Below are positions 4,224 to 14,759 of a stretch of DNA of 51,873 nt, piece after piece. Location: assembly GCA_012728835.1 (NCBI GenBank), contig JAAYEJ010000024.1, positions 1-51,873 on the forward strand, in the 5' to 3' direction. Under the pieces are notes generated by a model, which ran no database searches, was not told the origin of the DNA, and saw only the letters and a program-made list of their open reading frames with translations. The translations under genes were made by a program, and so were the position numbers. The DNA is from Candidatus Brocadiaceae bacterium. GTDB taxonomy: Bacteria > Planctomycetota > Brocadiia > SM23-32. How positions within the stretch are numbered: the first letter of the stretch is position 1; every line of letters begins with the position of its first letter.

Positions 4224-5426
4224 TCAGGCCTTCTTTGTCCTCTTCCGCGCGCGCTTTGCGGGCGGGCTCTTGCGGGCCAGTTCGCGGAAGACGGCCTGCA
4301 TGGCCCTCTGCGTGACCTTCTCCGCACGCGGTCCGACGCGCGTGGTGCGGATCTCGTAGCCGCCCTCGGGGTAGACGGCGGCAGTGGGCAGGTAGCCGAT
4401 GTTGCCGTTGCTGTAGCCGAGGATGAGCGTGGCTTCCGCGGGAGACGCCTCGCGGCCGAAAAGCGCATACTCGACGAAGACCTCTGCGCTCAGCGCGACC
4501 AGCATGGCCTCGCCCACGCGCACGCCCTGCAGGCGCAGCCGGCGCGCCTCCTCGCCCTTCTCCTTCGGCGGCAGGTCGGCCGTGCTGTTGACGACGCGCA
4601 GGGGCAGGGGCTCCAGGTCGCGCACGTGGCTCAGCGCTTCCAGGACGGCGGAGCAGGCGTCGCGGGCGTGCTGTTCCATTTCGCCGAAGGTGCCGCGCAT
4701 CCCGGGGCGGTGCGTGCTGTAGGGGTTCTGGTTGGCGCCGCAGCCCTGCAGGAACACGTAGCGCGCGCCCGGCGTGCGGCATTCCAGGCGCTCGACCGCG
4801 CGGGCCATCCACTCGCCCGAGAGACTCAGGTTCCATTCGCCCAGCGTCGTCCCGTGCAGGGGCACGCTGAAGAGCACCACGTCGGGCCTGTGCTCGCGCG
4901 CGAACCGCCAGACGTCGACCTCGTGGAGCGTCGGGCCTTCGGGGTTCTCGCCGAGGATGATCTGGCCGTCCTCGCGCAGTTCGCGGCGGTTCACGCCGAT
5001 GTCGAGCGGCGCGTTGCCGACGCTGAAGCGCGCCGGGGAGGCGTCGGCGAGGGCCACGCGCAGGGCGCGGACGCTCTGCCGGACCATCTCGGCGCGGTAG
5101 GCCTCCTGCATCTCGTCGGGCTCGTGACGGCCGACGGCCGGCCCGGCGTGCGTGTGGCTGGTGTTCAGCAGCACGCGGTCAGGTTCAAGGCCCGTGGCCT
5201 CCCGGATGGCGGCCTTGAACGCGTCGGCATGGTCGAGGCTGAGCAGGCAGACGTCGTAGGTGAGCAGCGCGACGCGCTCGTTGCCGGCCTCGATCACGAC
5301 GGCGTTGACGAACAGGTCGTCGTGCACGTCGTTGGCGCCCTCGGTGCGCGACGCGTAGCCGGCCATCCGGATGCCCAGCGGCGGCGTGATGCATTCCCGT
5401 CCATGCCCGACCGATACGGTGTCCAT
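4224..5426 (-). CDS. Neutral/alkaline ceramidase-like hydrolase
   Basis: The 400-residue protein starts with VGHGRECITPPLGIRMAGYA, the N-terminal pattern of the neutral/alkaline non-lysosomal ceramidase superfamily. It carries LLNTSHTHAGPAVG, whose His residues bind the active-site zinc in that family, then FLQGCGANQNP, and LILGYSNGNIGYLPT near the C-terminus. It is shorter than true ceramidases, has no signal peptide and ends in a Lys/Arg-rich tail, so a ceramide substrate is doubtful. Many bacterial members of this length are annotated only as ceramidase-like. It lies 111 bp downstream of the lasso B1 gene but has its own promoter candidate, so I do not count it in the lasso locus. A paralogue lies at 49481-50773. 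Confidence 0.75.
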   Translation of the reverse strand: MDTVSVGHGRECITPPLGIRMAGYASRTEGANDVHDDLFVNAVVIEAGNERVALLTYDVCLLSLDHADAFKAAIREATGLEPDRVLLNTSHTHAGPAVGRHEPDEMQEAYRAEMVRQSVRALRVALADASPARFSVGNAPLDIGVNRRELREDGQIILGENPEGPTLHEVDVWRFAREHRPDVVLFSVPLHGTTLGEWNLSLSGEWMARAVERLECRTPGARYVFLQGCGANQNPYSTHRPGMRGTFGEMEQHARDACSAVLEALSHVRDLEPLPLRVVNSTADLPPKEKGEEARRLRLQGVRVGEAMLVALSAEVFVEYALFGREASPAEATLILGYSNGNIGYLPTAAVYPEGGYEIRTTRVGPRAEKVTQRAMQAVFRELARKSPPAKRARKRTKKA

Positions 5427-5477
5427 GCGATGCCCCTTCCCAGGAGGTGCGGCGGATGCGCCAACGCAACGTCTCGG

Positions 5478-5506
5478 AGTCTACAGCCGCCCCGCCGGGC
5501 TGTCAA
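5478..5506 (-). promoter_or_regulatory. Promoter candidate of the ceramidase-like gene
   Basis: The minus strand carries TTGACA (5506-5501), a 17-bp spacer and TAGACT (5483-5478). The expected transcription start is about 45 bp before the ATG at 5426. It separates this gene from the lasso operon upstream. Confidence 0.6.
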
Positions 5507-5537
5507 TCCGCCGGCGGGCCTGGTGCGGGGTCTGCGA

Positions 5538-5834
5538 TCAGGAGAGTTCGGCCAGACCCTGCTCGACCAGCCGGGCAATCAGGTCGCGCATGTCGGCCCG
5601 CAGCGTCTCCGGCTCCACGTCGTACTCGTCGAGCAGGGCCTCGTAGGCGCTCTGAATCGAGTCGGATTCCATGAGCACCTGCCACATGCGGGCGCCGACC
5701 TCGTCCAGACCGTAGTAGGTCTCGTTGTCGAGGTTCAGCAGGACGGCTTCGCCGTCGAGGACGTTGATCAGCACGTTCTCCGCCGCCGACACGCGCTGCG
5801 AGAAGGGCACGTCTGCCATGGCCGGTTTCTCCAT
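5538..5834 (-). CDS. Lasso peptide B1 protein (PqqD-like RiPP recognition element)
   Basis: The 98-residue protein has the PqqD/RRE pattern: VPFSQRVSAAENVLINVLDG, then EAVLLNLDNETYYGLDEVGA, RMWQVLMES and a helical C-terminus with ARLVEQGLAEL. In lasso systems B1 binds the leader of the precursor and presents it to the B2 protease and C cyclase. It is the last gene of the locus, 50 bp after the nucleotidyltransferase gene. I took the ATG at 5834 (GAGAG just upstream). A second ATG at 5819, preceded by GGAG, would give a 93-residue product starting MADVPFSQ and is equally possible. The family call is firm and the exact start is not. Confidence 0.88.
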   Translation of the reverse strand: MEKPAMADVPFSQRVSAAENVLINVLDGEAVLLNLDNETYYGLDEVGARMWQVLMESDSIQSAYEALLDEYDVEPETLRADMRDLIARLVEQGLAELS

Positions 5835-5884
5835 GCTCTCTGAGTCCGATGCCGTGTCTCCCGGCGGCCCGGAGCCCCGGACGG

Positions 5885-7108
5885 TCACCGCCTTTGCGCC
5901 GTCCTGTGCCCGGGCCGCACCAGCGCAGCCAGCAGCCGCCCGACGGGAGCCACGGCATGCTTCCGTATCATGCGCCAGGGACGCACGCCATAGTAGAGGA
6001 ACGAGAGCCCGTGCGGCAACCGGCAGTGCGACCAGTCGGCCACCGTCGGGAACGCGGTGGCCTGCCAGCAATGGCCGATGCCGTCCCGCAGGCGTTCGCG
6101 CAAGCGCAGGGCGTAACGGAGGGAGTCCGCCGGGATCTTCCCGCGCTTCTCGCCGGCCAGGAAGGACTCCGCCATCCGCTCCGCCAGCCGCACCGCACGG
6201 GAGTCCGCGTTCATCGCGTCCTGCACGTGTGCGGGCACGGGCGCCTGCAGCAGGCGCCGGGCCAGCAGAAGGCCCAGGTGCAGTGCGCGCAGGGCGTGCG
6301 CGGCGGCCGCGCGAGCCGTGATCTCATCCCAGTGCAGGCAGGGGGTCGTGCGCAACAGCTCCGCCACGTCGCTCAGCCAGCCCAGACAGCTCCAGCGGTG
6401 TTTGCCCCCGTGCATGCACAGCAGCACGACCATGTCCTCGGGGCAGAACGTCGGCACCTGCCGCCCCAGCAGGGGCACGGCGCGGAGCCGCCGCCGGAGC
6501 GCCTCGCGGTCGATGCGGGCCGGGAAGGTCTTCCCCAGGAGGCCCGTGTGCAGCTCCACCGTCAGGGCGCCGTCGCCCTCGCCGCGCACCATCGGGAGCT
6601 GCCGCGCCCGCCGCACCTGGGCCCTCTCCTGAGCCGGCGTGAGGTCGAACGCGCAGCGGTAGCCTTGCCCGCGGAGCAGCGCGCGTGCGCGGGCGAAGTC
6701 CGGCGGGTCGATCAGGATGTCCAGATCGCCGAACTGCCGCAGCGCGATGTTGCCGTACGCCAGGGCGGCCAGCGTCGGGCCCTTGAAGGGCACGGCGGGG
6801 ATTCGGTGCTCGTCCAGGAGGTCCAGCAGGCGGAGCAGTTCGGCGGTCAGGCGCAGGCTGTGCGCTGCGTTGGCCCGGCAGTCCGCCGCCATCCGCTCCA
6901 GGGCGGCGGCCGGCACGGCGTCCGGGCAGACGCCGCTCAGGGTCCTGTGCAGCAGGGGCACGAGCCCGTGGTCCTGCGCCGTGCCGCGCAGCCGGTCCCA
7001 ATCGAGCACCTGCGCGGCCAGAGCGGCGATGTGCGGGCGCGCGTCGGCCTCGACGACCGTGCGGGCGCACGCCGCAAGCAGCTCCATCTCGGGCTTCGCG
7101 CACGTCAT
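5885..7108 (-). CDS. Nucleotidyltransferase of the lasso locus
   Basis: The 407-residue protein belongs to the NTP_transf_5-like family often found in lasso and other RiPP clusters. The diagnostic stretch is IPAVPFKGPTLAALAYGNI followed by LRQFGDLDILIDP, whose DxD pair would bind metal and nucleotide. A helical C-terminal half contains the pattern CMHGGKHRWSCLGWLSDVAEL, typical of the family. In the Bacillus pseudomycoidin pathway a related protein further decorates a phosphorylated tail, so a role after the kinase is likely here; the added group is unknown. The start at 7108 has GGGGAG upstream and lies 16 bp after the ABC gene. Another in-frame ATG seven codons later is possible. Confidence 0.85.
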   Translation of the reverse strand: MTCAKPEMELLAACARTVVEADARPHIAALAAQVLDWDRLRGTAQDHGLVPLLHRTLSGVCPDAVPAAALERMAADCRANAAHSLRLTAELLRLLDLLDEHRIPAVPFKGPTLAALAYGNIALRQFGDLDILIDPPDFARARALLRGQGYRCAFDLTPAQERAQVRRARQLPMVRGEGDGALTVELHTGLLGKTFPARIDREALRRRLRAVPLLGRQVPTFCPEDMVVLLCMHGGKHRWSCLGWLSDVAELLRTTPCLHWDEITARAAAAHALRALHLGLLLARRLLQAPVPAHVQDAMNADSRAVRLAERMAESFLAGEKRGKIPADSLRYALRLRERLRDGIGHCWQATAFPTVADWSHCRLPHGLSFLYYGVRPWRMIRKHAVAPVGRLLAALVRPGHRTAQRR

Positions 7109-7124
7109 CACGCAGCGCTCCCCA

Positions 7125-8981
7125 TCACGGGTGTTCGCCCTGAACGACGAGTTGGCCGCGCTCCATCTGCGCATGCCAGGACTGTGCATACGGCCCCGCC
7201 CGCTCGACGAGTTCCGCATGGCTGCCCGATTCCACGATCCGGCCCTCCTGCATGACGTGGATCACGTCGGCGTGCATCGCCGTCGTGAACCTGTGCGTGA
7301 TCAGCACGGCCGTGCGGCCCTCGGCGAGCGTCCGGAACCGCTGCAGCCAGTCGCCCTCGGCCCACGAGTCCATGGCGCTGGTGGGCTCGTCCAGCAGGAT
7401 GATGGGCGCGCGGCGCAGGAACGCCCGGGCCAGGGCGACCCGCTGCCACTCGCCGACGCTGAGTTCCGCGCCGCCGGCGAACCACTTGCCCAGCAGGGTG
7501 TCGTAGCCCCGCGGAAGGCGGGAGATCGGCTCGTCTGCGCCGGCCGCCCCGGCGGCCGCTTCGATCTCGGACGCGCCCGGCGCGGCCGGCAGGTCGCCCA
7601 GGGCGATGTTGTCGGCGGCCGTGACGCTGTACTGGACGGGCTGCTGGAACAGGACGGTCACCAGGCGGCGGTACTGCGCGACCGGCAGGTCCCGCAGGTC
7701 CACGCCGTCGATCTCGATGCGCCCCCGGTCAGGATCGTAGAGCCGGCACAGCAGCTTGATCAGCGTGCTCTTGCCCGCGCCGTTGGGGCCGACGATCGCC
7801 ACGATCCGTCCGGCGGGGAGATGCACGTCGAAGTCGCTGAGCGCAGCGTTCCCGCTGCCGGGGTACCGGAACGAGACGCCGCGGAACCGGATGCCGTCGC
7901 GGAGTTCGGCGGGCACCGGCCGGGGGGCCGCCGGGCTGACCACGCGGGGCGCGAGGTCCAGAAACTCGAACAGGTTGCCGAGGAACAGGCAGTTGTAGTA
8001 GATCTGCCCGATGTGCTCGGTGAAGCTGCGCATGGCCGCCTGCCCGCGGCTGAAGACGGCGTAGAACAGCGCCAGGTCGCCCAGTGTGCCGCGGCCGTGC
8101 AGCACGCGCCAGACCATCCAGAGCAGGGCGGCGCCGGTCACCAGCAGCCCCAGCGCGGCGGCCCCGGCCTCGCTGAGGGCCTGCCGACGCGAGAGCGCCA
8201 CCCGCTCATCGCGCAGCCGCTGCCGCAGCACTCGGTGTAGTGCCCGGAAGTGGTCTCCCAGCGCGAAGAGGCGCAGTTCGGCGGCGTTCTCCTTGGACGT
8301 CAGAACCCAGTCGTAGTACCACGTGCGCCGCTCGTTCTCCGTGTTGCGCAGCCGCCACTGGTGCTCCCGCAGGGCGAAGGCCAGCATGACGTAGAACGCC
8401 GGCATTGCGGCGGTCAGCAGCGCTACGGGAAGCCACCATCCGTACGGGACCAGCACCGCCGCCATGGCCAGCAGCGTGACGCCGTTCTGCAGCAGGCTGC
8501 CCGTGTTCTCCAGCAGGGCGACGGACCGGTAGCCGGCCTGGTCCCGGGCGCGATGCAGGTGATCGAAGAACTCGGGCGACTCGTAGAACGCCAGGTCGGC
8601 GGCGACCGACTGCTCGTGGATCAGGCCGCTGATGTGGTCCCGGAGGAGTTCCGACTGCACGGTGCGCACCAGGCCGGCGGCGACGCGCAGCAGTTCGTGC
8701 GCCAGCACGAGCGCCGCCACCAGGGCCGCCAGGACCAGCACCGGCCGCATGCGCTTCCAGTCGCCGCCCGCCAGCGCGACCTCCTGAAGTCCGTTGATCA
8801 GCGAACGGGCCAGGTAGACCGTGGCCGCCGGCAGGACGCCCTGCACCAGCAGCAGAACGACCCAGACCAGCGTCCATCGGCGCGTGGCATCCCAGACAAG
8901 GCTCAGCGTGTCCGGCATGTGCCGGATCTGTGCCAGGGCCTTGCGGAGGTTGGTGCCGAAGATACCGAGTGCGGATTGCAT
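7125..8981 (-). CDS. Lasso peptide exporter (ABC transporter, D protein)
   Basis: The 618-residue protein fuses a six-helix membrane domain (about residues 35-320) to one ATPase domain. The ATPase has Walker A GPNGAGKST at 398-406, a Q-loop in LFQQPVQYSV, signature LSVGEWQ at 507-513, Walker B IILLDE at 527-532 and an ITHR switch. The signature is the LS-G-E variant seen in bacterial peptide exporters rather than LSGGQ. There is no N-terminal C39 protease domain, as expected when B2 removes the leader. As a homodimer it would export the mature lasso peptide and give self-immunity. It lies 85 bp after the kinase gene and 16 bp before the nucleotidyltransferase gene. Confidence 0.92.
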   Translation of the reverse strand: MQSALGIFGTNLRKALAQIRHMPDTLSLVWDATRRWTLVWVVLLLVQGVLPAATVYLARSLINGLQEVALAGGDWKRMRPVLVLAALVAALVLAHELLRVAAGLVRTVQSELLRDHISGLIHEQSVAADLAFYESPEFFDHLHRARDQAGYRSVALLENTGSLLQNGVTLLAMAAVLVPYGWWLPVALLTAAMPAFYVMLAFALREHQWRLRNTENERRTWYYDWVLTSKENAAELRLFALGDHFRALHRVLRQRLRDERVALSRRQALSEAGAAALGLLVTGAALLWMVWRVLHGRGTLGDLALFYAVFSRGQAAMRSFTEHIGQIYYNCLFLGNLFEFLDLAPRVVSPAAPRPVPAELRDGIRFRGVSFRYPGSGNAALSDFDVHLPAGRIVAIVGPNGAGKSTLIKLLCRLYDPDRGRIEIDGVDLRDLPVAQYRRLVTVLFQQPVQYSVTAADNIALGDLPAAPGASEIEAAAGAAGADEPISRLPRGYDTLLGKWFAGGAELSVGEWQRVALARAFLRRAPIILLDEPTSAMDSWAEGDWLQRFRTLAEGRTAVLITHRFTTAMHADVIHVMQEGRIVESGSHAELVERAGPYAQSWHAQMERGQLVVQGEHP

Positions 8982-9066
8982 GGTCTGATGTCACCACGGC
9001 CGGCCGCGCATCTGTCGGGGCGCGCGGACGGCGTTGTCGGGCCTCCTCAGGCCCTGCACGGCGATG

Positions 9067-10083
9067 CTACGCGCACTCCGACTCGACGGGTGCGGCGGCC
9101 GAGTCGGGTTCCGTGCCCGGCGTTCGGGAGGTCTGCGGCGGTCCGACGTGGGCCAGGATCGCCGTGCGAACGTCCTGGAGGAGCGAGTAGTGCCGCGGGT
9201 AGGACAGGCGGAAGAGCGGCACCATGCGGCTCCAGCGGACGATCCGCTCGAACTCCCGGCGGAGCAGGTCCCGATCGTCCACGAGCAGATGGAACGTGCC
9301 CTTCATCAGTTCCATGGCCGTATCGCGCAGGGACACCGGCGCGATCGTGATCCCGTCGGCGTCGGCCGTCTGCCCCGGAGGTGCCAGCAGGTAGGCGCCG
9401 CGCAGCCGGACGGGGCCTTCGTGCCAGGTCATGCCCGTGTCGGCAGGCGAGAGCCGCCTCTTCCCCGTGTAGTGGGCGACCTGCGGCAGCGCCGTGTCCG
9501 CTCCGAACAGCGTCTCCACACTGTCCCGCCAGAGGCGCAGGCTGGGGTAGGTGGCCACGACCGAGAGCGCCCCGCCGTCTTCGCTGACGATGATCGAGTC
9601 GTCCGAGAGCAGGGGAGCGCCGTCGAGGCCGAAGCTGGACACGAGGGTGGACTTGCCCCGGCCGGTCTCGCCCAGGAAGGCCACCGCCTCGCCGCCGATG
9701 AGCACCGCCCCCGCGTGCACGACAACCCGGCCGCGGCGCGAGAGCGCAAGGGGCAGCACTTGGTCCAGGAGCAGGTGGCAGAGCGTCTGGCGCGGCAGGC
9801 GGGGTTCCGGACGGCAACTGAGGCACCGGCCGTCGGGGTCCAGCACGAAGTCGGCCATGCCGTAGAATCGCACCAGGTGCCCCTGCGGGACGACGCCCAC
9901 CGAATACCAGGCGCTCCCATCCGGCAGCTCCGCGTGCCGCACCCACCGGTGGACGTGCGGGCTGGCCGTCTCGGGAGGAAGCAGCGGAACGGGAGGCAAG
10001 GGACCCTCGCCCGTCACCCGCGGAAGCACCAGATGGGGGCCGCTTCCGCCGAACATCTCATCGAACCGAGACGGTTGGGTCAT
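9067..10083 (-). CDS. HPr-kinase-like lasso peptide kinase
   Basis: The 338-residue protein has HAGAV at 123-127, a P-loop GETGRGKST at 138-146 and LLSDDS around 158-163. This is the order seen in the C-terminal catalytic domain of HPr kinase and in the kinases of the paeninodin-type lasso clusters. Those enzymes phosphorylate the side chain of the C-terminal Ser of the precursor. The precursor encoded next to it does end in Ser, which supports this role. It lacks the N-terminal domain of true HPr kinase/phosphorylase and instead has about 100 residues with a Cys pair (CLSCRPEP). The frame stays open upstream, but that part shows no family similarity, so I chose the ATG at 10083. Confidence 0.88.
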   Translation of the reverse strand: MTQPSRFDEMFGGSGPHLVLPRVTGEGPLPPVPLLPPETASPHVHRWVRHAELPDGSAWYSVGVVPQGHLVRFYGMADFVLDPDGRCLSCRPEPRLPRQTLCHLLLDQVLPLALSRRGRVVVHAGAVLIGGEAVAFLGETGRGKSTLVSSFGLDGAPLLSDDSIIVSEDGGALSVVATYPSLRLWRDSVETLFGADTALPQVAHYTGKRRLSPADTGMTWHEGPVRLRGAYLLAPPGQTADADGITIAPVSLRDTAMELMKGTFHLLVDDRDLLRREFERIVRWSRMVPLFRLSYPRHYSLLQDVRTAILAHVGPPQTSRTPGTEPDSAAAPVESECA

Positions 10084-10720
10084 CCTTGGGACACCTGCCA
10101 GGGTTATGCGGTTGTCGTCCTCCGCCCGTGTCGGACGGAGTGGCCGCCATCGCTGTCTGCAGACGGTCCGGATGCGGAAAGAACGTGGACGGTGCGATGC
10201 CAACGATGTCGGACCTGCGTTGCGACCTGCACTCGCGGCGACTGCCCTCAACGCGGTCCCTGGGCGGCAGTGGGCGGCGTCCGGCCGATGCCGCCCACTC
10301 CCATGGCAGCGAGCGACTCCGACCGACAGGCCGAGGAGGCGAAAGGGCTCTCGGACGATCCCGTGCCGGCCTGCGCGCGTCCGGCATCCTGCCCGGTCAG
10401 TTGCACAAACGGACCCACACACGTCGGACAACGGTGTGCAGGCACTCGCCCGGGTCCGGTCCGCCCACGTTCCGCGGCCGGCCGCGACCGTCGGCACTTC
10501 TCACTGCGACAATCCGCAACCGGCTGCACCACACACCCGGCGCGGCAGATCATCACCCTCGGTCATCCCCGTCCGGCGGTTCGGGCGCGGTGCGGGAGAG
10601 GCCGGGCATCCCATGCTATCGCGGACACAATGTCCCGCGTTCTCTCCTAACCGTCAGGCGCCGCCCGCCATCACACTCCGGCGAACCGGGACAGCGCCCC
10701 GGCCGCCCATCGAGCGCCTG
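10084..10720. other. 637-bp stretch without a recognisable gene
   Basis: Between the lasso precursor and the kinase gene I find no ORF that looks coding in any frame, no second precursor with the YxxP...G leader motif, and no strong promoter on the minus strand. A short imperfect hairpin at 10621-10638 (minus strand GGACA-TTG-TGTCC core) lies about 80 bp past the precursor stop without a T-run. It could slow but would not clearly stop transcription. Confidence 0.5.
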
Positions 10721-10885
10721 TCACGAACGGTGACCGGGGTCCTTCCCGTGAGAATGCGGAGCCGAGTGCTCCACCATGCTTGAGCCTCCGCCCTTGGTCA
10801 GTTGCGCGACCGTCCCGTATGTGCTCATACACGGGGCGGAGTACCGTCTCTTTGCTGACAGAAAGCGTGTGGTGTCCTTCTTCAT
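10721..10885 (-). CDS. Lasso peptide precursor (A peptide)
   Basis: The 54-residue peptide begins MKKDTTRFLSAKRR and then carries the lasso leader motif Y15-x2-P18-x-M20-x2-Y23-G24-x-V26-x2-L29-T30-K31. Thr30 sits at position -2 of the expected cut, so the core starts at Gly32. Core residues 1-8 are GGGSSMVE. Glu8 is the only acidic residue at positions 7-9, so an 8-residue Gly1-Glu8 macrolactam is predicted. The tail is HSAPHSHGKDPGHRS: four His, no aromatic residue, and a C-terminal Ser suited to the adjacent kinase. The ATG at 10885 has GGAGAGG four bases upstream. The open frame extends further upstream, but the family pattern starts here. The gene lies between C and the kinase gene and has its own strong promoter. 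Confidence 0.92.
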   Translation of the reverse strand: MKKDTTRFLSAKRRYSAPCMSTYGTVAQLTKGGGSSMVEHSAPHSHGKDPGHRS

Positions 10886-10967
10886 GGATCCTCTCCGGAG
10901 CGGCCCGGATCCTGCAACACGGTTGCCACACTCGTCGCTCGTTGCAGCGCAACCGTAGAGAGGATCC
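10886..10967 (-). promoter_or_regulatory. Structured mRNA leader able to bury the precursor's ribosome-binding site
   Basis: Perfect 10-bp arms at 10958-10967 and 10886-10895 (transcript GGATCCTCTC and GAGAGGATCC) would pair the Shine-Dalgarno sequence directly before the ATG. Inside lie an 8-bp pair (10949-10956 with 10919-10926) and a 7-bp pair (10941-10947 with 10912-10918) that cross each other, giving a pseudoknot or alternative folds. The same bases also form two local hairpins, GTTGC-N3-GCAAC (10941-10953) and GCAAC-N3-GTTGC (10914-10926). The symmetric GTTGC/GCAAC boxes could instead be a protein-binding operator. Confidence 0.6.
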
Positions 10968-11054
10968 GCCCGCGTGGCGTTCTGCACGTCTCTCCAGTGT
11001 GCCGGTCACCGCAGATTGGACGGACGGCAACCGATGCACCCGCACCGGTCGCGA

Positions 11055-11083
11055 ATTATACCGGCAGGCGCGCGCCTTGTCAA
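11055..11083 (-). promoter_or_regulatory. Perfect sigma-70 consensus promoter of the lasso precursor
   Basis: The minus strand reads TTGACA (11083-11078), a 17-bp spacer, and TATAAT (11060-11055). All twelve bases match consensus in an otherwise GC-rich region. Transcription should start near 11048, giving a leader of about 160 nt before the precursor ATG. It lies just past the stop of the C gene and would let the precursor be made in excess over the enzymes. Confidence 0.85.
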
Positions 11084-11139
11084 TAGGGAAAATGCGCAGT
11101 CTGGACCCATCCTTCTCCGGAGTCTCGAGACCGCCGTCC

Positions 11140-13107
11140 TCACGGCCTGGCGGTTGTCTGCTGCGGCTCCCGTGCCGCCCGGCCGTGGCCCCGGCGCCAG
11201 ACGGCCAGTGCGACGGCCTGCCAGATCCTGCCGCCGTCTTCCACCGCCCCGGTGGCCGCATGGCGGCGACGGGCCTCGTCCAGCGTGTTCAGACACACCA
11301 GGTCAGCCAGGTCCGTCCTCGGGCCGTCCAGCGCATCCGCGATGAGGCCGGCGGCCAGCGCGAACCACCGGGAGAGGAACGCGGCCCCGAGGTGTTCCCA
11401 GCCCTTGCGCCAGGTGACCTCGGGCGGGAGCAGGTGCTCGACGGCCCGGCGGAGGGCCACCTTCGTCCAGCCGCCGCCGAGGCGCTGCGTGCGCGGCAGG
11501 CGGAAGCAGAACTCGACGAGCCGCTTGTCCAGGAACGGGCGGCGCGGTTCGATCGAGAAGGCCGCCGCCATCCGGTCGTAGCGCTCGAACGCCACGGGCA
11601 GGTTCGGGGAGTCGAGCCGCCCTACGTCCAGTTCGCGCAGGCGGCGCGGGAGCCCCCGCCCCGGCCGGCCGCGTCCGTAGTGGGCCTCCACGCGATCGGC
11701 CAGCCGGATGCGGTCCGCAAACGCGGGATCGACAAGCGAGTTCCGAATGAGGGCGGCGGCCCGCCGCCGTCTGCGCATGTCCCTCAGCCGACCGCTCATC
11801 GGGATCCTGTGGGTGGGCAGCAGGGGCCGAAGGCCGTCGTGGAACAGGAAGTGCCACGGAGACTTCTTCCAGCGGCGGTAGAAGTCCGCCAGGCCCCGGG
11901 CGTCGGCCGCGGCCTCCCCCCACCGGCCCTCCCGCAACAGATAGGCCAGGTACACCCCGGCATGCGAGGCCACCACGTCGCCGTCCACGCCGTCCAGCAG
12001 GACCCGGATCCCCTCCCGCCGCGCGGCGGCGTACATGGGCAGCGGCACGCTGATCATGTCGTTGTCGAACAGGTCCTCGGTGTGGCGGACGATCCGCTCG
12101 AGGTCCGGCAGGAAGGCCGGCAGGTCCGCCGGGCGGACGGTGAAAGGCCGCACGCGGCCCTGCGCGAGCACGGCGCGGATGGCCCGGCTCTCCGGGCAGC
12201 CGGTCTCGTCGTCCGCCACCGCCGAGAACGTGCGCAGCGGGCCGTCGGCGGCATTCGCCAGGAGGTCCCGCGCCACGGCCACGATGGCCGACGAGTCCAT
12301 GCCCCCGCTGAGCATCGCGCCGACGGCGTCGGGGGACCGAAGCCGGCACCGGACCGCCTCGGTGAAGACCTCCAGGAACGCTTCGGCATGCTCCGCGTCG
12401 GACCCGAGGCGGAGGTCCTCGGCGGACGGGTCGAGCGCCCAGTAGCGGCGCAGCGTCGCGCCCTGTCCGGAGACCGTCAGGGAGTGGGCCGGCGGCAGGC
12501 GGAAGACGTGCTCGTAGAAGGTGCACGTCTTGTCGATCGGCTCCAGGTCCGTCAGCAGGTAGTCGGCGATCCGGGCCTCGTTGATCCGCCAGGGCACCGC
12601 CGGCAGGGCCATGACGCCCTTGGTCTCGGAGGCGAAGGCGAACAGCGAGTCGGACAGGTGGTAGCAGAACGGCTTGATGCCGAAGTGATCCCGGGCGCAG
12701 AAGAGGGTCTGTCGGCGGGCGTCCCAGACGGCGAAGGCGAAGTCGCCCAGCAGGCGGGCAGGGCAGCCCTGGCCCCAGCGCTCGTAGGCGCGCAGGATCA
12801 GCTCGCTGTCGGTCACCGTGTCGGCCGGCCGGCCGGCGGGGCCCAGGGCCGCGATCAGTTCCTCCCGGTTGTCGATGCGGGCGTCGGCCGTGATCGTCAG
12901 GCCGCGGACGGGGTCGGTTGCCGGCAGCGTCTCGTGGAGCGATTCGGGCGTGGTGCGCAGCATGCAGTGTCCCAGGCCGACCGGCCCCTGCGCCCACGTC
13001 CCTGATCCGTCGGGGCCGCGGTGGAGAAGGGCGCTGACCATCCGCTCGACCTCGCGGGGCGCGGCGGGGCGACCATCGAGACGACAGAATCCGGCAATCC
13101 CGCTCAC
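11140..13107 (-). CDS. Lasso cyclase (asparagine synthetase-like C protein)
   Basis: The 655-residue protein has an N-terminal glutaminase-like domain (about 1-190) and an ATP-pyrophosphatase synthetase domain with the PPi loop SGGMDSS at 247-253. In lasso pathways this protein adenylates the ring Asp or Glu and joins it to the new core N-terminus. It starts with GTG, giving MSGIAGFCRLDG. Residue 2 is Ser, so the Cys2 nucleophile of true glutamine-dependent asparagine synthetases is missing, as expected for an enzyme that uses the peptide amine rather than ammonia. Its GTG overlaps the TGA of B2 (GTGA), so the two are translationally coupled. Without that context it would be read as an ordinary AsnB. 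Confidence 0.9.
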   Translation of the reverse strand: MSGIAGFCRLDGRPAAPREVERMVSALLHRGPDGSGTWAQGPVGLGHCMLRTTPESLHETLPATDPVRGLTITADARIDNREELIAALGPAGRPADTVTDSELILRAYERWGQGCPARLLGDFAFAVWDARRQTLFCARDHFGIKPFCYHLSDSLFAFASETKGVMALPAVPWRINEARIADYLLTDLEPIDKTCTFYEHVFRLPPAHSLTVSGQGATLRRYWALDPSAEDLRLGSDAEHAEAFLEVFTEAVRCRLRSPDAVGAMLSGGMDSSAIVAVARDLLANAADGPLRTFSAVADDETGCPESRAIRAVLAQGRVRPFTVRPADLPAFLPDLERIVRHTEDLFDNDMISVPLPMYAAARREGIRVLLDGVDGDVVASHAGVYLAYLLREGRWGEAAADARGLADFYRRWKKSPWHFLFHDGLRPLLPTHRIPMSGRLRDMRRRRRAAALIRNSLVDPAFADRIRLADRVEAHYGRGRPGRGLPRRLRELDVGRLDSPNLPVAFERYDRMAAAFSIEPRRPFLDKRLVEFCFRLPRTQRLGGGWTKVALRRAVEHLLPPEVTWRKGWEHLGAAFLSRWFALAAGLIADALDGPRTDLADLVCLNTLDEARRRHAATGAVEDGGRIWQAVALAVWRRGHGRAAREPQQTTARP

Positions 13108-13607
13108 GGCGGCCCCTTTCGGACGGGCGGGTCCCCGGGCGGGCCGTCGGGCCGTGCCGCCGTCCGGGCCTGTCGGAACCGGCCGAACCGGCGGCGGACG
13201 CCTTCGGGCTGGTTGACGGGCTGGCCCATGAGTTCGACCCAGGCGTGGGCCTCGAGTCGGCCCGCGTGCTTGTATGCGCCGACGCAGAGTTCCGTCTCGA
13301 TGCCGCGGCGCCGCAGCAGATGCTGCAGGACGATGGACTGCAGGAGGCACGCGGCGCGGAACGGACACCAGCGCGCGGCGACGGCCACCATGCGTGCCGC
13401 CTCGACCGCGCTCACCATGGCGCCGGCCGCGCTCGCTGCGTGTCTTGTGTCGGGCGGCGTTCCCGTGGCCGCCCGTCCGAGCACTTTCAGGCGCCGGAGC
13501 CCCAGTACCCGCAGGGCGACTGCCGTCAGCGGCAGCAGGACGAGTGCGCGGAGCAGCAGGCTGCGCTGGCGGCGGCTCAGCGCGCGGTACTGGCGCCACT
13601 TGCTCAT
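13104..13607 (-). CDS. Lasso peptide B2 protein (transglutaminase-like leader peptidase)
   Basis: The 167-residue protein starts MSKWRQYRALSRRQRSLLLR, the hydrophobic-basic N-terminus common in B2 proteins. The protease motif is CLLQSIVLQHLLRRRGI with Cys87, then ELCVGAYK and HAWVELMGQPVN with His121. The third triad position, usually Asp about eleven residues after His, reads Asn132 in the PVN motif. B2 cuts the leader after the Thr-x pair so that the C protein can close the ring. The ATG at 13607 was chosen because the family pattern starts there; the frame is open further upstream. A promoter candidate lies 47-75 bp upstream. Confidence 0.9.
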   Translation of the reverse strand: MSKWRQYRALSRRQRSLLLRALVLLPLTAVALRVLGLRRLKVLGRAATGTPPDTRHAASAAGAMVSAVEAARMVAVAARWCPFRAACLLQSIVLQHLLRRRGIETELCVGAYKHAGRLEAHAWVELMGQPVNQPEGVRRRFGRFRQARTAARPDGPPGDPPVRKGPP

Positions 13608-13653
13608 GGATGCGGGCGTTGCTTTCGGCTGACGGGGAGGCACGGCCCGGGCC

Positions 13654-13682
13654 AGTGTACCGGCTGGCCCCGGCAGGGGCAA
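13654..13682 (-). promoter_or_regulatory. Promoter candidate of the lasso B2-C genes
   Basis: The minus strand has TTGCCC (13682-13677), a 17-bp spacer and TACACT (13659-13654), each matching consensus at four of six bases. Transcription would start about 40 bp before the B2 ATG. It makes B2-C a unit separate from the precursor promoter. Confidence 0.5.
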
Positions 13683-13703
13683 GTGGTGGCGCGGCGCGGT
13701 GGC

Positions 13704-13732
13704 TTGAACGCCCCGGGGGCGGCCCGTAGAAT
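13704..13732 (+). promoter_or_regulatory. Promoter candidate of the secreted protein gene at 13794
   Basis: TTGAAC (13704-13709), a 17-bp spacer and TAGAAT (13727-13732) lie about 60 bp before the ATG. It is divergent from the B2-C promoter, with the -35 elements about 20 bp apart. Confidence 0.6.
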
Positions 13733-13793
13733 CCGGTGCGGGACGGTGGTCCCGATGTCAGGTTCTGGGAACGCGGGCCGGAAGGGGAAGGTC

Positions 13794-14759
13794 ATGTCGA
13801 TGCTGTCGGTCGGGCTGGGGGTGGTGGTGTTGATGGGGTGTTCGGTGGCGTGGGCACAGGAGGCGTCGGAGGGGATCGCGGCGGGCTTCCCCGGCGACGT
13901 GGGGATCGAGAAGCACCCGGCGGTCCTGTTTGCCTCGGGGTTCGAGGACGGCTTCGAGGGCTGGTCGCTCGTCGAGCGCGACCGGCGGATCAGTTCGCTC
14001 GTTGAGGATCCGGAGCTGGCCCACAGCGGCACCACCTGCTGCCGGAGCGTGGCGGTGCGGGGCGTGAACACGGGCGGGAACGTCACGCACAACTTCCGGA
14101 GGGAAGTGGACCAGGTCTTCCTGCGCTTCTACTGCCGGTTCCACAGGGATGCCGTCATCCCGCACCACTTCGTGAAGATCCGCGCCATCCGGCCCGGCGG
14201 CGACGGCATCCGCGCAGGGCGGCGTCCCGCCGGCGACCGCGCTTTCTGGACCGGCATCGAGCCGGTGCGCGATCGCACCTGGCAGTTCTACACCTACTGG
14301 CACAAGATGCGGGCCTCCCAGCAGCGTGCGACCGAAGCCGAGAGCACCTACTACGGGAACCGCATGATCATGGGCGGCCAGGAGCGGCTGGAGCGCGAGC
14401 GCTGGATCTGCGTCGAGGCCATGCTGAAGGCCAACACACCGGGACAGTCGGACGGCGAGCAGGCGTTCTGGATCGACGGCGAGCTGATCGGCTGGTGGAA
14501 GCCGGGCAGCCCCATGGGCAACTACCGCGGCGCGCACTTCGTGACGCCCGCCCCGCCCGGGACGGAGCCGATCCCGTTCGAGGGCTTCGACTTCCGCAGC
14601 GATCCGGCGGTGAAGATCAACCAGGTGCTGCTGCAGTGGTACGTCACGGAGCGCTACGCGCGCGCCGGCACAAGCGACCGGAATATCGTGTACTTCGACG
14701 ACGTGGTGATCGCGACGGAGTACATCGGGCCGATGGCGGCACGCACTGACACGGACTGA
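13794..14759 (+). CDS. Secreted protein with polysaccharide-lyase-like jelly-roll pattern
   Basis: The 321-residue protein has an N-terminal export signal, MSMLSVGLGVVVLMGCSVAWA. It could be cleaved after AWA or lipidated at the Cys in LMGC, although Met at -2 makes a weak lipobox. The rest is rich in aromatic beta-strands (ASGFEDGFEGWSLVERDRR, VFLRFYCRFHRD, QAFWIDGELIGWW, NIVYFDDVVIATEYIGP), a pattern of concanavalin-like domains in polysaccharide lyases and LamG-type proteins. I cannot name a family. The start has GGAAGG upstream. The last codons (ARTDTD) are written by the flanking repeat, so the C-terminus may have been altered by repeat insertion. Confidence 0.65.
   Translation: MSMLSVGLGVVVLMGCSVAWAQEASEGIAAGFPGDVGIEKHPAVLFASGFEDGFEGWSLVERDRRISSLVEDPELAHSGTTCCRSVAVRGVNTGGNVTHNFRREVDQVFLRFYCRFHRDAVIPHHFVKIRAIRPGGDGIRAGRRPAGDRAFWTGIEPVRDRTWQFYTYWHKMRASQQRATEAESTYYGNRMIMGGQERLERERWICVEAMLKANTPGQSDGEQAFWIDGELIGWWKPGSPMGNYRGAHFVTPAPPGTEPIPFEGFDFRSDPAVKINQVLLQWYVTERYARAGTSDRNIVYFDDVVIATEYIGPMAARTDTD

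Follow-up and report, generated by a model that had tools for sequence, protein, structure and literature searches.

In the microcin J25 system, the lasso precursor gene mcjA is transcribed from an independent promoter and the processing genes mcjBCD from another; as far as the cited accounts describe it, mcjA expression belongs to stationary phase, depends on ppGpp, IHF, and Lrp, and is divergent from that of mcjBCD (PMC12967822, PMC13361873). Since mcjA and mcjBCD have independent promoters, a separate promoter for the precursor gene of a lasso cluster is already known. The kinase-type lasso clusters (paeninodin, pseudomycoidin, and the B1-B2-C-A-K-D-N clusters of cyanobacteria, Acidobacteria, and others) have the same gene set as the locus analyzed here, and the kinases PadeK and PsmK phosphorylate the C-terminal Ser of the precursor (PMC9266682). 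Our locus lies in a window of 51,873 bases, by which we mean the whole stretch of DNA that was analyzed (70% GC), and its genes are co-directional in the order B2-C-A-K-D-N-B1:

13107..13607, minus strand, lasso leader peptidase B2 (NF033537 over cut-off; PF13471)
11143..13107, minus strand, lasso cyclase C (NF033535 over cut-off; Asn_synthase)
10724..10885, minus strand, lasso precursor A, 54 aa, stop codon at 10721-10723 (NF033528 21.7 bits, below the cut-off of 33)
9070..10083, minus strand, HprK-related kinase K (TIGR04352 35 bits, below the cut-off of 200; synteny)
7128..8981, minus strand, ABC exporter D (profile matches)
5888..7219, minus strand, nucleotidyltransferase N, start codon uncertain (PF14907)
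5541..5804, minus strand, PqqD-like leader-binding protein B1 (PF05402 over the Pfam cut-off; NF033536 below cut-off)

The cyclase, the B2 peptidase, and the PqqD-like B1 of a kinase-type cluster are all present, B1 scoring below its NCBIfam cut-off. An HprK-like kinase, recognized by a weak NCBIfam score and by synteny, accompanies a precursor whose last residue is Ser; this kinase has no Pfam match, and its tblastn matches sit after C in many relatives. Precursor leader residues Tyr15, Pro18, Gly24, and Thr30 (the Thr at −2) are identical in all 12 precursors chosen for alignment. We infer that the core following the Thr at −2 is GGGSSMVEHSAPHSHGKDPGHRS and that its residue Glu8 is probably the ring acceptor. 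The core stretch GGSSMVEHS resembles translated tRNA genes; this origin was rejected, with no tRNA in the window according to ARAGORN and nothing from Rfam.

How does the locus compare with the described systems? As judged from its sequence, the precursor gene has, like mcjA, a promoter of its own that is distinct from the promoter of the processing genes. Unlike the microcin J25 units, which are divergent in the accounts cited above, the genes here are co-directional and the precursor promoter carries the housekeeping consensus; moreover, two genes, B1 and B2, take the place of a single B, and the cluster includes a kinase gene and a nucleotidyltransferase gene. The precursor shares with the paeninodin and pseudomycoidin type the C-terminal Ser that PadeK and PsmK modify. 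In contrast to the kinase-type clusters, B1 lies at the cluster end rather than before B2, and an internal consensus promoter precedes A, an arrangement found in 0 of 77 relatives scored.

The promoter elements of the locus are as follows:

11055..11083, minus strand, sigma-70 type consensus promoter TTGACA-N17-TATAAT, expected start at about A11049
10886..11049, minus strand, 5' untranslated region of about 164 nt, given the expected start at A11049
13654..13682, minus strand, weak promoter candidate TTGCCC-CTGCCGGGGCCAGCCGG-TACACT, 8 of 12 matches, upstream of B2-C

The original prediction had placed a full 12 of 12 consensus between C and the precursor on the coding strand, and both the sequence and the gene coordinates agree with it. 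On the minus strand, TTGACA (11083-11078) and TATAAT (11060-11055) are separated by the 17-nt spacer AGGCGCGCGCCTGCCGG, so that both hexamers of the main sigma factor, sigma-70, are matched in full at a spacing within the 16-18 nt range. The promoter lies 56 nt beyond the end of C, whose stop codon is 11140-11142, and the precursor ATG at 10885 follows after a further 169 nt. The exact pattern occurs once in the window and in 0 of 100 dinucleotide shuffles of it, and for the 254-nt gap between C and A, 2000 shuffles give p ~0.0005 for the match. There is no extended −10 (no TG ahead of TATAAT), no UP element is clear by eye, and the discriminator is GC-rich. The base at 11048, the start predicted originally, is C, and the closest purine is A11049. 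RNA polymerase can be slow to escape from a full-consensus promoter, and the match to consensus is no measure of promoter output.

A weaker site TTGCCC-N17-TACACT before B2-C had likewise been claimed and is indeed there, with fewer matches (8 of 12) than the precursor site. Sites equal to it or better are contained in 2.6% of the shuffles of the 187-bp region before B2, and as a B2-C promoter candidate 13682-13654 is plausible, though unproven. We also note that the heptamer GCCGGTA, situated just before and into the −10, is common to both cluster promoters (11059-11065 and 13658-13664); at the 13 remaining perfect sites in the genome the spacer ends differently.

The strongest evidence that the precursor promoter is real comes from its own genome (3.07 Mb in 82 contigs, 96.9% complete). 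TTGACA and TATAAT at 16-18 nt spacing occur 14 times versus 0 for the reversed pattern, TTGACA-N16-18-TANAAT 32 times versus 0, and TTGACA-N16-18-TANNNT 135 times versus 1; all five window sites of the last pattern are intergenic, although a crude gene list leaves only about 16% of the window outside coding sequence. With 14 perfect sites in 3.07 Mb, and a window of 70% GC, the contention that a full consensus is rare in a GC-rich genome holds. By crude ORF calling, a same-strand gene or tmRNA start lies no more than about 180 nt from 11 of the 14 perfect sites, the exceptions being L001, L007, and L009. The tmRNA is found 15 nt past the −10 of one of them, and hisA, serA (TIGR01327), thrS, and purM, each above its own NCBIfam cut-off, lie behind others; among the 10 proteins scanned downstream of perfect sites, three had no match at 1e-8 and three had sub-cut-off or domain matches only. 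Likewise, the perfect pattern is present in 19 of 19 genomes (this one and 18 others), at 11 to 52 sites each versus 0 to 4 for the controls. The enrichment of the pattern and its placement before genes in its own genome are those of a sigma-70 promoter, and TTGACA-TATAAT can serve as a promoter consensus both in this GC-rich genome and in its relatives. The lasso-locus site shares its hexamers and a spacing of 16 to 18 with the tmRNA, hisA, serA, thrS, and purM promoters; whereas these serve housekeeping genes, it serves the precursor of a specialized metabolite. By this evidence the site belongs to the housekeeping promoter class, and that membership, which speaks most strongly for its reality, is also the reason to regard it as ordinary. 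Because the pattern is non-random and belongs to a class that is functional across its own genome, 11083-11055 is very probably a genuine promoter of the main (housekeeping) sigma factor.

Which genes would this promoter transcribe? The 640-nt gap between A and K contains neither a sigma-70 site with at least 8 of 12 matches nor a U-tailed terminator, and the next good sigma-70 type site downstream is past B1. The relevant features are:

10656..10699, minus strand, hairpin, −26.1 kcal/mol, no U tail, just past the precursor stop
10266..10302, minus strand, hairpin, −29.8 kcal/mol in 44-nt windows, no U tail, in the A-K gap
5478..5506, minus strand, sigma-70 type site TTGACA-N17-TAGACT, 10 of 12 matches, before a ceramidase-like gene (4224-5426)

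The absence from the A-K gap of a site with at least 8 of 12 matches and of a U-tailed terminator speaks against the view that the promoter is dedicated to the precursor, and because of it the promoter most likely also drives the kinase, the exporter, the nucleotidyltransferase, and B1. We propose, with good confidence in the reading as a whole, that a real housekeeping-sigma promoter at 11083-11055 gives rise to a second transcript within a kinase-type lasso cluster. This transcript would start near A11049 with a leader of about 164 nt, carry the precursor first, and most likely continue as far as B1 by way of the kinase, exporter, and nucleotidyltransferase. The weaker upstream promoter would transcribe B2 and C, and transcripts from it may also run on into the precursor. 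As the first gene behind a good promoter, and with hairpins after it, the precursor would likely be more abundant as message than any other gene of the cluster. The DNA itself establishes the site, its departure from chance, the promoter class in this genome, the identities of the genes, and the lack of a further good sigma-70 site ahead of the kinase; from these we infer that the promoter is transcribed, how strong it is, how far the transcript reaches, and whether precursor is in excess. An excess of substrate over enzyme is a proposal, as yet unproven. The gap itself (10084-10723) has no coding bias, with codon-position GC of 0.70, 0.70, and 0.71. A 17-nt leader-coding repeat had raised the idea that it holds a second, decayed precursor, and this was rejected: 10723-10084 shows no codon-position bias, and by eye no translated frame has the full leader motif.

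Two alternatives bear on whether and how far this promoter acts. Consensus matches alone prove nothing, and the relatives lack the site downstream of C, so that 11083-11055 could be a chance or non-functional match; the window and gap shuffles, the genomic counts of 14 versus 0 and 135 versus 1, and the intergenic placement make this very improbable. A less unlikely alternative, which we hold to be doubtful without dismissing it, is that the precursor forms a unit of its own, its transcript ending at the 10699-10656 or the 10302-10266 hairpin and thereby raising substrate over enzymes. Among the more stable hairpins of the locus, two do fall within the 640-nt gap, 10302-10266 being the most stable single hairpin on the minus strand of 5400-13800 (44-nt windows). 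Moreover, an inverted repeat lies between A and the downstream genes in many lasso clusters, as has been described (PMC5974421), and mcjA has its own promoter (PMC12967822). However, neither hairpin is followed by a U tract, hairpins of similar energy also lie inside the genes of this GC-rich lasso locus, and K-D-N-B1 would be left without another promoter of at least 8 of 12 matches. An intermediate arrangement is also reasonable: because a terminator-like inverted repeat after A has been described for many lasso clusters, the promoter may yield a precursor-rich transcript with partial read-through. The two hairpins could lower read-through, leaving an expression of A in excess over the enzymes possible.

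Does so good a promoter call for control at a later step, as had been suggested? It need not, because other perfect sites of this genome precede ordinary housekeeping genes. The leader does contain a perfect 10-bp complement, GGATCCTCTC (10967-10958) with GAGAGGATCC (10895-10886), that covers the Shine-Dalgarno sequence, and one may picture a riboregulated precursor whose message is made constantly and whose ribosome-binding site is closed by this helix until an alternative fold forms. We think this improbable. A helix of this kind is as rare as 1 in 501 in shuffles, the real one counted, and three GGATCC copies within about 80 nt would permit alternative pairings. However, the helix was found after looking; a complement of at least 10 bp occurs in 0.7% of 25,320 windows of the organism's own sequence and in 8 of 684 own-sequence windows that contain a Shine-Dalgarno sequence plus a start. 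The leader folds with an unremarkable energy (z −0.27 and −1.18), and the accessibility of the Shine-Dalgarno site is not unusually low (p 0.16 to 0.28). A comparable leader helix is present in 0 of 34 relatives, and Rfam gives no gathering-level match in the window and none at E up to 1 in 10086-11140, so the leader corresponds to no riboswitch or RNA leader known to Rfam. The 10-bp helix over the ribosome-binding site is a weak, unconserved lead. The larger idea that a one-operon cluster was split in two by a gained constitutive housekeeping promoter ahead of the precursor, which is restrained after transcription by a long-range helix over the ribosome-binding site, making an RNA switch at a lasso precursor, has in our view a very small chance of being right; no described parallel appeared among the papers that a literature search listed.

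Equally slight is the chance that the promoter is held off by a repressor at an operator in its spacer. Between the −35 and the −10 lies the 12-bp palindrome AGGCGCGCGCCT, which occurs at eight places in the genome versus two for the reversed control; GC-rich spacers, however, easily give palindromes (the L001 perfect site has one of 10 bp), and a scan of 10 other proteins of the window revealed no regulator family. As to the GGATCC copies in the leader (10886-10967), one touches the start codon; the pairings that they allow exclude one another, and one of these pairings covers the Shine-Dalgarno sequence.

A cyclase search yielded lasso loci from named genomes, of which the best 78 were kept, and in these B1, B2, K, D, and N were placed by tblastn and A by a leader regular expression. 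Among these best 78 loci the commonest order is B1-B2-C-A-K-D-N (eight loci), many others being parts of it, and A usually follows C and precedes K. In 34 of the 78, the regular expression found a precursor downstream of C and separated from it by at least 60 nt; none of these 34 has a sigma-70 site at p 0.05 against its own shuffles, a level that the window reaches. When 254 nt after C (fewer at contig ends) were scored irrespective of any precursor, 0 of 77 relatives reached p 0.05, the best score being 9 of 12; L107, with no sequence after C, was left out. Because only sigma-70 hexamers are scored, promoters of other kinds would escape this test; as far as these hexamers tell, the promoter is a feature of the locus and not of the family. 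Since it is absent after C in all 77 relatives scored, the function of the cluster does not require it. The site suggests that an additional start, directly ahead of the precursor, can arise within the usual C-A-K operon, and it offers a concrete promoter for expressing a lasso cluster from an 82-contig genome.

No cyclase match at 1e-60 was found in the eight other same-family genomes (147 genomes, own included), and NF033535 at 1e-100 matches in 5 of 392 genomes, the one over the cut-off being this genome. Consequently, these searches supplied no near relative for leader covariation or footprinting.

Finally, we note several features of gene order and distribution. B1 (5541-5804), at the far cluster end in the window, precedes B2 in most relatives. 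L110 is the one other same-phylum locus in which a precursor was seen; this precursor (2482-2646) overlaps the cyclase end, leaving no gap, and is directly followed by a reading frame that looks methyltransferase-like by eye. Two loci titled Euryarchaeota, L071 and L074, encode relatives of the lasso cyclase with 45% identity over query residues 1-569.
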